Of a stretch of DNA of 64,000 bases, positions 961-3,010 are shown piece by piece. The stretch is from Herbiconiux solani NBRC 106740 (GTDB taxonomy: Bacteria > Actinomycetota > Actinomycetes > Actinomycetales > Microbacteriaceae). The notes below the pieces were generated by a model. The model was not told the origin of the DNA, did not search any database, and worked only from the letters and a program-made list of their open reading frames with translations. Made by a program: the position numbers and the translations under genes. Location: positions 310,001 through 374,000 of the forward strand of contig NZ_BCST01000005.1 in assembly GCF_001571005.1 (NCBI RefSeq), in the 5' to 3' direction. Each line of letters begins with the position of its first letter. Position 1 is the stretch's first letter.

Positions 961-1033
961 GGCTCTGTAGCTCAGTTGGTAGAGCGCACGACTGAAAATC
1001 GTGAGGTCACGGGATCGACGCCCGTCGGAGCCA
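961..1033 (+). tRNA. tRNA-Phe (GAA)
   Basis: Acceptor GGCTCTG (961-967) pairs with CGGAGCC (1026-1032), discriminator A1033. The anticodon loop CTGAAAA carries GAA at 994-996. The T arm reads ACGGG-ATCGACG-CCCGT, so the normally near-invariant T54 is A here, while T55, C56 and A58 are kept. The anticodon-arm segment 985-1007 is repeated at 2092-2114 on the other side of the Abi_2 gene, suggesting this tRNA has served as an integration site. Confidence 0.95.
985..1007 (+). repeat. attL-like copy: anticodon arm of tRNA-Phe
   Basis: This 23-bp segment of the tRNA-Phe gene matches 2092-2114 at 22 of 23 positions (17 consecutive: actgaaaatcgtgaggt). Anticodon arms are a known crossover site for tyrosine recombinases that integrate in tRNA genes. 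Calling it attL is inference. Confidence 0.6.
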
Positions 1034-1035
1034 CT

Positions 1036-1071
1036 GAAACCCTCGCCTAGCTTCTACATGGCGGGGGTTTC
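1036..1071 (+). terminator. Terminator hairpin after tRNA-Phe
   Basis: GAAACCCTCGCC (1036-1047) pairs with GGCGGGGGTTTC (1060-1071) over 12 bp with one T-G pair and a 12-nt loop. It sits directly after the tRNA and also faces the end of the Abi_2 gene on the other strand, so it may work in both directions. Confidence 0.7.
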
Positions 1072-1106
1072 TTACGTTCCCGCCCCGTGGCGCGCGTCTC
1101 GATGAC

Positions 1107-2015
1107 TCACACCCTCGCCCAGAGCTCGATGCCCTCCCAATCGTCAGGCGCACCGAGCGCTCCGAGATTCATCGCGTTCTGCCGAGGGAAGCTTCTCATC
1201 GCTGCGCACAGCATTCGGCCGTTCACGCCGGGAGTGTGCGCGATCAGATACTGGATCGCGGTCAGCATGGCGAAGGTCGAATTGGTCACCGGCCTGATCT
1301 CGTCCAGCGAGTGGTCAACACCGGGCGCGGGCAGCTTCACCGTCAGCGAGTAGTACCGATTGAAGAACCGCGAATGGTGGGCGCAGACGTTCCGGACGAC
1401 GTTCAGTGCACGCAACCACGACTTCAGCTGAGGTGCGGTGAGGCCGAACCTATCGGCGATCGCCTCGCGTACCGCGAGCGGCGTGAAGTTGTACAGGTAC
1501 GACAAGCCTCCCCAATCCAAGACGTCGACAGCTACCCAGATGGGAATCACACCACCCCGCGCACGGCGGTGGTGGACGATGAACTCTTCGCGGGAATCCC
1601 GAACGTTCTGCTCAAGCTTCTCCAGCCACCGTCGGTAGTCCGAACCATCGTCGATCGACAGATCCTCGGGCCGGAGGTGAACCAGAGGATCCACTTCCCC
1701 CAACCGATACCCCAGTTGCGCCCTCAAAGACATTTCGATCGGCTGAAGGGCCGCGAAGGTGGTCGCCCTCAGTCGATTGTCGAACTCCCAGAGCAGGCCC
1801 ACATCGCCGAACGTCGCGCCCTCGCGGAACCGGTCGGTTCTGCTCCCGTCCGGACGCTTGAGGCGCAGCGAGTGCCAGTAACCGCTGAGGGTGTAGTAGC
1901 CGGCCCGGGCCAGAAGGCTCAGAGCGGCAGCGTCGTCCTCAACCGCCATGCCGCGCTCTTTGACGAGAGCGAGTTGCATCTCGTACGTCTTGAACGGCTT
2001 CGGATCCACGCGCAC
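1107..2015 (-). CDS. Abi_2 family abortive-infection protein (AbiD/AbiF-like, HEPN RX4H motif)
   Basis: The protein of about 302 residues carries the Abi_2 (PF07751) pattern: an N-terminal KPFKTYEMQLALVKERGM segment, AGYYTLSGYW, a central WEFDNRLRATTFAALQPIEMS, and a C-terminal RNVCAHHSRFFNR. The RX4H motif (R208/H213) fits a HEPN-type RNase centre; such proteins are linked to phage abortive infection. I chose the GTG at 2015 (an alternative GTG is at 2009) because family similarity begins there; the frame is open further upstream but looks non-coding. No good Shine-Dalgarno is visible. The GC content looks lower than in neighbouring genes. The gene lies alone between tRNA-Phe and a duplicated tRNA-Phe fragment, consistent with horizontal transfer. 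Substrate and trigger cannot be read from the sequence. Confidence 0.82.
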   Translation of the reverse strand: MRVDPKPFKTYEMQLALVKERGMAVEDDAAALSLLARAGYYTLSGYWHSLRLKRPDGSRTDRFREGATFGDVGLLWEFDNRLRATTFAALQPIEMSLRAQLGYRLGEVDPLVHLRPEDLSIDDGSDYRRWLEKLEQNVRDSREEFIVHHRRARGGVIPIWVAVDVLDWGGLSYLYNFTPLAVREAIADRFGLTAPQLKSWLRALNVVRNVCAHHSRFFNRYYSLTVKLPAPGVDHSLDEIRPVTNSTFAMLTAIQYLIAHTPGVNGRMLCAAMRSFPRQNAMNLGALGAPDDWEGIELWARV

Positions 2016-2091
2016 AGCATGCCAGAAAAGTAAAGACCGGCCCTGGACCCTTTCGGGCGGAACCGGTCGTGTTGAAGAAAGAATATCACGC

Positions 2092-2114
2092 CGCACAACT
2101 GAAAATCGTGAGGT
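2092..2114 (+). repeat. attR-like copy of tRNA-Phe anticodon arm
   Basis: This matches 985-1007 in 22 of 23 bases. It lies just upstream of the Abi_2 start and before the nuclease gene. The sequence after it does not resemble a tRNA 3' half, so the junction is either decayed or not a classical complete attR. No integrase gene is visible between the copies. Confidence 0.55.
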
Positions 2115-2161: not shown

Positions 2162-3010
2162 ATGGGCTCTTCTGACGGATTCGATTCTTCCTTTCTTGGG
2201 CTTGAGTGTGGGGTGCCGGGGGTGGCGGCCGGGCGGGCTGTGCGGGTGCTGGGGTATACGCATTTCTCGGTGCATTTGGATCCGGAGCGACGGCTGGCCG
2301 CGGTGACCGCGGTGAACATCGACGGGGCGACGGCGGTGGATGCTCCTCGCGGCGACGACTGGCACCTCGACGAGCGCATCCCCGCGAGCGAGCAGACCGG
2401 GCCCGAGGTGTACGCGCGCAACGACCTCGACCGCGGGCATCTCGTGCGCCGGCGCGACCCGGTGTGGGGGCCGGACGCGACTAAAGCGAACTACGACACC
2501 TTCTCGTATACCAACGCAGCCCCGCAGGTCGCGGAGTTCAACCAGTCGAAGGAGCTCTGGAACGGGCTCGAAGACCACGTGCTCTCCTACGCCGAGACGA
2601 ACGGACTGCGGGTGAGCGTGTTCACCGGGCCCGTGTTCGGAGACGAGGATCCGGAGTACCGCGGGGTGCGCATCCCGTTGGGGTTCTGGAAGGTGGCGGC
2701 GTGGAACGCGGCCGGCGTGCTGCGGGCGGCGGGATTCGTGCTCGACCAGTCGCCGCAGCTCGACGGGATCGACCTGGAGACAGCCCGCGCGACCGCCATC
2801 GCGACGGATGCGCCGCCGCCGCTCGGGCCGTTCCGTACCTTCCAGGTTGCGGTCGCCGACCTGGCCGCGCTCACCGGGCTCGACTTCGGGGTCATGGAGG
2901 CGGCCGACGTCTTCGAGCGACCGGCCGAGGAGACGGGCATCCGTCCACTCGGGCTGCCGCGGGCGATGCGGTGGCGCGAGCTCGAGAGCGCCGAGGCCAT
3001 CCGCCTCTGA
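2162..3010 (+). CDS. DNA/RNA non-specific endonuclease (NUC1, beta-beta-alpha metal)
   Basis: The 282-residue protein contains the family motif as NDLDRGHLVRR (DRGH, catalytic His), followed by YDTFSYTNAAPQVAEFNQS, in which the downstream Asn and Glu/Gln fit the Mg2+-binding helix, and then an LWNGLEDHVL segment. This is the PF01223 nuclease fold, which cleaves DNA and RNA without strong sequence preference. No signal peptide is visible at the start (MGSSDGFDSSFLG), so it may be cytoplasmic or exported by another route. The ATG at 2162 is preceded by a GGGGG-type ribosome site; the frame is open upstream as far as 2069. It lies just outside the Abi_2 island boundary. Confidence 0.85.
   Translation: MGSSDGFDSSFLGLECGVPGVAAGRAVRVLGYTHFSVHLDPERRLAAVTAVNIDGATAVDAPRGDDWHLDERIPASEQTGPEVYARNDLDRGHLVRRRDPVWGPDATKANYDTFSYTNAAPQVAEFNQSKELWNGLEDHVLSYAETNGLRVSVFTGPVFGDEDPEYRGVRIPLGFWKVAAWNAAGVLRAAGFVLDQSPQLDGIDLETARATAIATDAPPPLGPFRTFQVAVADLAALTGLDFGVMEAADVFERPAEETGIRPLGLPRAMRWRELESAEAIRL

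Follow-up and report, generated by a model that had tools for sequence, protein, structure and literature searches.

A probable truncated attR of a decayed element, with an Abi_2 gene and a conserved hairpin RNA, beside the tRNA-Phe gene of Herbiconiux solani

We analysed a window of 64,000 nt from Herbiconiux solani NBRC 106740 (NZ_BCST01000005.1, 310,001-374,000, forward strand; positions are counted from the window start) and compared it with other species of the host genus (16 genomes including the window's own) and with the host family Microbacteriaceae (398 genomes). Numbers preceded by G denote individual genomes. Following tRNA-Glu and tRNA-Asp genes, the locus comprises a tRNA-Phe gene, an Abi_2 gene and a hairpin RNA on the opposite strand, a copy of the tRNA anticodon arm and the chromosomal right neighbour, arranged as follows.

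961-1034, plus strand: tRNA-Phe (GAA) with intact 5' half, core and 3' half, on the attL side (ARAGORN, Rfam RF00005)
985-1007, plus strand: anticodon-arm core, copy 1 (repeat comparison)
1035-1083, plus strand: native-type sequence that follows the 3' end of tRNA-Phe and includes a terminator-like hairpin (flank comparison; hairpin read off the sequence)
1107-2009, minus strand: Abi_2/AbiD gene encoding 300 aa from a GTG start and bearing the HEPN-type motif RNVCAH (PF07751, PADLOC, translation)
2026-2072, minus strand: conserved hairpin RNA of 47 nt, putative RNA antitoxin (conservation, fold, covariation)
2080-2085, minus strand: putative -10 element (TATTCT) of an RNA/abi promoter, suggested by the same spacing to the RNA in four relatives
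2092-2114, plus strand: anticodon-arm core, copy 2, read as a truncated attR (repeat, chance and edge tests)
2114-2115, no strand: junction without the displaced 3' half of the tRNA and without its terminator (comparison with other intervals, 3'-half alignment)
2162-3010, plus strand: DNA/RNA non-specific endonuclease (Endonuclease_NS) gene, chromosomal right neighbour, with a match in 15 of the 16 genus genomes

An earlier, sequence-only reading had claimed that the tRNA-Phe segment 985-1007 recurs at 2092-2114, and the comparison confirmed a direct tRNA-segment repeat flanking the insert, as in tyrosine-recombinase elements, with 22 of 23 positions identical and G990 versus A2097 as the sole mismatch. 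This similarity is far beyond chance, which was ruled out as an explanation: no third site within six mismatches of the 23-mer occurs on either strand of the 64-kb window, and the best match in 300 Markov sequences of 1.2 kb was 18/23, reached in one sequence, the commonest being 13/23. The exact 17-mer core is found at two sites in the 3.85-Mb genome, both at this locus, and allowing one mismatch adds a single, unrelated genomic site. The pattern for the tRNA-Phe 3' half matches the genome once, at 961-1034. Indeed, the weak point already conceded for the repeat, namely that no tRNA 3' half follows position 2114, stands as well. The displaced 3' half expected past the right repeat of a tyrosine-recombinase element is missing: local alignment downstream of 2114 detected no trace of it or of a terminator and scored 23, a value equalled by 179 of 500 shuffles, and the same alignment run as a control on the attR of G010 scored 148.

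As to the cargo, the claim that only the Abi_2 gene lies between the copies proved right for protein genes, a single ORF there being assigned to a family and the integrase gene of a tyrosine-recombinase element being absent, and wrong in overlooking the conserved RNA element. The Abi_2 product, a likely phage-defence toxin, matches Pfam PF07751 (E 1.6e-43; 149.6 bits against a cut-off of 25.6), is called AbiD by PADLOC (E 6.8e-58), carries the HEPN R-polar-xxxH motif as RNVCAH and, by sequence comparison, is matched over residues 3-297 of 300 by PDB entry 8vz6, an 'Abi family protein' (E 1.5e-29); NCBIfam holds no family for it. Its GTG start was picked to sit below the RNA and to agree with the starts of the relatives. 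The low GC content attributed to the gene was likewise borne out, at 0.628 (1107-2009) versus 0.700 for the next gene and 0.715 for the window, and values as low or lower are found in 1.3% of 1,262 windows of 903 bp.

On the Abi_2 strand, 16 nt separate the hairpin RNA from the downstream start of the gene, and a counterpart precedes four Abi_2 relatives, with protein identities of 45-63%. Alignment of the five RNAs revealed 37 invariant positions of the window sequence; 98.6% of cells are paired, and compensatory changes are seen in two pairs. The window RNA folds 3.4 sd better than its shuffles and the four relatives have z values of -1.6 to -2.1. A model built from these five sequences (window plus four relatives) and searched in 249 family genomes matched 25 of them at E <=0.001. 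Ten places scored above 40 bits, and seven of these, the window included, have Abi_2 directly downstream (tblastn, 43-63% identity; one of the seven matches is split over two frames and another spans just 92 residues), which leaves three strong matches with no adjacent Abi_2. None of the 16 weaker places has Abi_2 beside it, so that these are probably chance matches. In an alignment of the 12 distinct strong RNAs, 99.4% of 164 cells are paired and four pairs have changed on both sides, with a covariation score reached by none of 500 shuffles for this alignment, which was fitted to the structure. Rfam 15 offered no family for the RNA and nothing near threshold besides tRNAs, and Rfam abiF (RF03085) gave no match at E up to 10. 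A conserved, structured RNA is thus placed upstream of the Abi_2 gene and on its strand, as in AbiF-type systems, and by analogy with these is probably an RNA antitoxin of Abi_2.

Two further observations concern this RNA. The three strong matches that stand alone fall in two genomes: in G132 the RNA (L102, G132:C1:2488174-2488224) sits between ORFs that we read as topoisomerase-like and thymidylate-kinase-like, and in G237 both RNAs (L103 and L121, G237:C8:23469-23527 and C14:21525-21583) are followed by a terminator-like hairpin; they may be solitary antitoxin RNAs or relics. In the window, a 10-bp perfect inverted repeat (2010-2019 and 2114-2123) brackets the RNA, with one arm immediately ahead of the Abi_2 start and its partner right behind the core copy, and could perhaps be due to chance.

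The position of the arm copy, 20-42 nt before the RNA and over the -35 position of the putative promoter, lends itself to a regulatory explanation, in which the copy would be part of the Abi_2 system as a decoy or antisense of the tRNA-Phe anticodon arm or as a promoter piece. On the Abi_2 strand the copy can fold (-3.6 kcal/mol, z -2.0), and HEPN RNases such as Cas13a are described in PMC12373285 as able to cut tRNA anticodons. However, the best arm match within 200 nt upstream of 13 other RNA loci was 10-14/23, which is the chance level, and none exceeded 14/23. We rejected a regulatory role on these grounds and consider it very improbable.

We now turn to the use of the site in the family. 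The 17-mer of the tRNA-Phe arm, which leaves the tRNA 3' half outside, is present in 145 of the 398 family genomes and occurs in two or more copies in 16. A second search pattern, which contains the 3' half and is blind to cores lacking it, matched 375 of the 398, 50 of them more than once (22 of the 50 were located individually); in 37 of these 50 the copies lie <=20 kb apart on one contig, in four they are more distant or opposite, and in nine they are on separate contigs. Defining an interval as neighbouring tRNA-Phe copies <=20 kb apart on one contig, 37 of the 398 genomes carry 41 intervals. PF00589, sought in all 37 genomes, matched 26 of the 41 intervals and was without a match in 15. 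Among the 26, the match lies <=300 bp from the left copy in 21 and on the strand opposite the tRNA in 25; weak or broken cases are G007 and G292 (fragments), G424 (a stop) and G079 (a short match). These data bear out the assumption that duplicated tRNA pieces mark integration here, and identify the tRNA-Phe anticodon loop as a real and busy integration site in the host family.

Pairwise BLAST of the integrases from tRNA-Phe intervals seemingly separates at least two groups acting on the one anticodon loop, the first with G010, G073, G275, G337, G344 and G347, and the other with G083, G133, G154, G297, G030 and G324. A literature search on tRNA-Phe integration in genera of the host family returned no matching paper. 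None of 187 matching phage records spans 80% of the query, and the best 20 of the 187 match the first 100 query bases alone, that is, the tRNA; Microbacterium phage Hendrix has an ordinary tRNA gene at the matching place.

The edges of the repeats were read in 31 left-right pairs, 10 of the 41 intervals lying outside that set; the 1,616-bp interval of G319 ends in a second intact-looking tRNA and so provides no attL-attR pair. In all 31 pairs, identity between right copy and tRNA sets in 0-7 nt ahead of the anticodon loop, and the right copy carries the tRNA 3' half (37-43 of 43 positions). The window copy shares the first property: its left edge lies 7 nt before the loop with one mismatch, inside the 0-7 nt range, and that mismatch falls left of the loop, on the element-derived side of an attR. 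It departs from the second. Cores without a 3' half are fairly compared by the 17-mer search, because the other pattern requires the 3' half, and 15 of the 16 genomes with two or more 17-mer copies show equally many 3'-half matches, the window genome alone showing fewer (two 17-mer copies against one 3'-half match). A core without the 3' half is therefore unusual.

Within the genus, the endonuclease gene is on the same contig as tRNA-Phe and <25 kb away in 10 of the 15 genomes with a match, the other five having the two on different contigs or at unseen positions. The two genes lie closest in G014 (~0.2 kb), followed by G001 and G012 (0.8 kb) and the window (1.2 kb); in G002, G003, G004, G007, G009 and G010 they are 4 to 23.5 kb apart. 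G014 represents an empty site, with intact tRNA, terminator and a short leader, and then the endonuclease. Abi_2 relatives were detected in 3 of the 16 genus genomes, and at tRNA-Phe in the window's genome only, being absent from that place in the other 15; this presence in 1/16 genomes, together with the short spacer of G014, ruled out a fixed feature of the genus. The comparison that had been proposed as a check thus yielded an empty site in G014 and differently filled sites in other genomes of the genus, all from other species. A same-species empty site was not visible among these relatives. The exact form predicted for an empty site, with 1007 joined directly to 2115, did not materialise, as the relatives keep an intact tRNA, terminator and leader before the next gene. 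As a separate observation, G001 (L033) and G012 (L025) carry single-gene insertions between tRNA-Phe and the endonuclease with no arm copy.

Elsewhere, several intervals are small or decayed. That of G007, from the same genus (L067, 1118-2377), spans 1,259 bp and contains a C-terminal integrase fragment with a stop and one ORF without a Pfam match; a 2.8-kb interval in G292 likewise holds an integrase fragment with a stop; and the 2.4-kb interval of G303 has no PF00589 match. In G354, from another genus, an interval of 979 bp (L046, 728-1723) consists of VbhA and Fic genes only (PF18495, E 3.4e-14; PF02661, E 3.8e-16), again with no PF00589 match, between complete attL and attR. The intervals of G007, G354 and G303 evidence that small, integrase-poor inserts are a recurrent outcome at the tRNA-Phe site.

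Such inserts invite a second explanation, a cargo-only mini-element moving in trans, for which the integrase of a helper element with tRNA-Phe specificity would use both cores. Integrase-free intervals do exist (the 15 of 41 without a PF00589 match, including the Fic/VbhA interval with its full attL and attR), and the anticodon arm would still make a short inverted repeat for such an integrase to bind. However, the seven integrase-domain proteins of the window genome, none of them encoded inside the window, are at most 37.5% identical to the tRNA-Phe-interval integrases (a set of 17, from the 26 integrase-bearing intervals), so that a helper in the same genome was rejected, none being close; besides the closest one, three of the seven adjoin tRNA-Arg, tRNA-Thr/Met and tRNA-Lys genes. 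Excision would moreover break the only tRNA-Phe gene found by the pattern, no second copy of the cassette was found at another tRNA-Phe, and the Abi_2 relatives of the genus are located elsewhere. Mobilisation in trans is accordingly quite improbable, and of the two fates originally proposed for the locus, trans-mobilised element or remnant, the latter is favoured. We would give little credence to a broader conjecture, according to which the loop hosts in this family ~1-kb cargo-only elements, each with a single toxin-antitoxin or Abi cassette (the window and G354), moved by integrases in trans and missed by island finders that demand an integrase and >=2 kb, the one in the window being held in place twice over, through its toxin and because the 3' half of the only tRNA-Phe gene belongs to it.

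We consider it likely that the second arm copy is a truncated attR and the locus a decayed, CIME-like element that can no longer move and has kept its cassette of toxin and RNA. The use of the site in relatives, the attR-like left edge and the decayed intervals elsewhere argue for this assignment. Against it stand the three strong RNA matches with no Abi_2 beside them, the absence of a core without 3' half from all 15 other multi-copy genomes and the native type of the flank following the intact tRNA: of the 50 nt after the window tRNA-Phe, 47 are identical to G014 and to G001 and 48 to the displaced copy of G010, versus 18 to the element-borne flank of G010, and element-borne flanks usually differ from those of the host, >=40 of 50 positions being identical in just 5 of the 31 pairs. 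This leaves two options: an element that brought along a flank resembling that of the host, or a tRNA that has stayed undisplaced. The latter is the main rival, in which illegitimate end joining would have placed the Abi_2 cassette next to the tRNA, the 23 nt being filler copied from that tRNA or a stray end of another element. It would account for the native flank and for a right copy without the 3' half, and the insertions in the same spacer of G001 and G012, each a single gene without an arm copy, fit it too. On the other hand, the copy starts where true attR copies start and has its sole mismatch on the element side, which is unexpected of random filler and leaves this rival rather unlikely. 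Two facts, the native flank and the lack of a visible integrase trace between tRNA-Phe and Abi_2, strain the truncated attR, which we therefore call no more than likely.

With the second arm copy read as a truncated attR, a tyrosine-recombinase element would have entered the tRNA-Phe anticodon loop, restoring the tRNA on the left and shifting the old 3' half to the right. The integrase and almost all other genes of the element would have been lost later. Because the leader before the endonuclease is longer in G014 and G010 than in the window, we infer a deletion of ~130 bp (an estimate against these two genomes), which would have taken the displaced 3' half, the terminator and part of the endonuclease leader. 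What remains would be a 1.1-kb remnant with the gene for a HEPN-type Abi_2 toxin and, ahead of it on that strand, the hairpin RNA, which most likely keeps the toxin in check by binding it, in the manner of the AbiF antitoxin RNAs. Such a cassette would tend to persist because its loss could free the toxin. Precise excision, in turn, would leave the 5' half of the tRNA fused to sequence that is not tRNA and break the sole tRNA-Phe gene; with the 3' half gone at the right end and only one match to the tRNA-Phe pattern, the remnant should therefore be locked in place. The label of minimal defence island, understood as a working unit, does not suit a right end devoid of the tRNA 3' half.

A tRNA-integrated element could thus decay very far and still keep its toxin cassette, and islands of <2 kb without an integrase are real at the tRNA-Phe site and fall outside the standard island search. 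The hairpin RNA linked to Abi_2, unmatched in Rfam, would add a compact, single-hairpin form to the Abi systems with RNA antitoxins, which are discussed as kin of Cas13 ancestors. Should excision prove lethal, the locus would also offer a test of retention through ownership of a tRNA.

The closest known systems include the tRNA-targeted genomic islands catalogued by Islander. Islander, as described in PMC4383910, rejects candidates that lack an integrase and those of <2 kb, and expects a displaced fragment; the window locus resembles its islands in having a tRNA and a tRNA fragment with an insert between them, and differs from them, by that description, on all three counts (integrase, >=2 kb and displaced fragment). 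A CIME, or cis-mobilizable element, in the definition given in PMC5704250, is a decayed ICE or IME that has lost its integration and transfer genes and kept attL and attR. Similarly, the window cargo is flanked by an intact tRNA and a copy of the core and has no integrase or transfer genes, attL and the core of attR being kept and the 3' part of attR lost; unlike a CIME, its right end is truncated, so that a usable attR is not assured, it measures 1.1 kb only, and no parental ICE or IME was identified. In the AbiFCd-RCd22 system of Clostridioides difficile, the abiF RNA binds the toxin and thereby neutralises it (PMC12373285). The window cassette shares with it the Abi_2 domain, the R-polar-xxxH motif and a structured RNA immediately 5' of the gene and on its strand, and differs in having one hairpin of ~47 nt, whereas the AbiFCd system is described there with two motifs and a terminator. 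The element itself is of a known kind, and the new part is the compact Abi_2-linked RNA.
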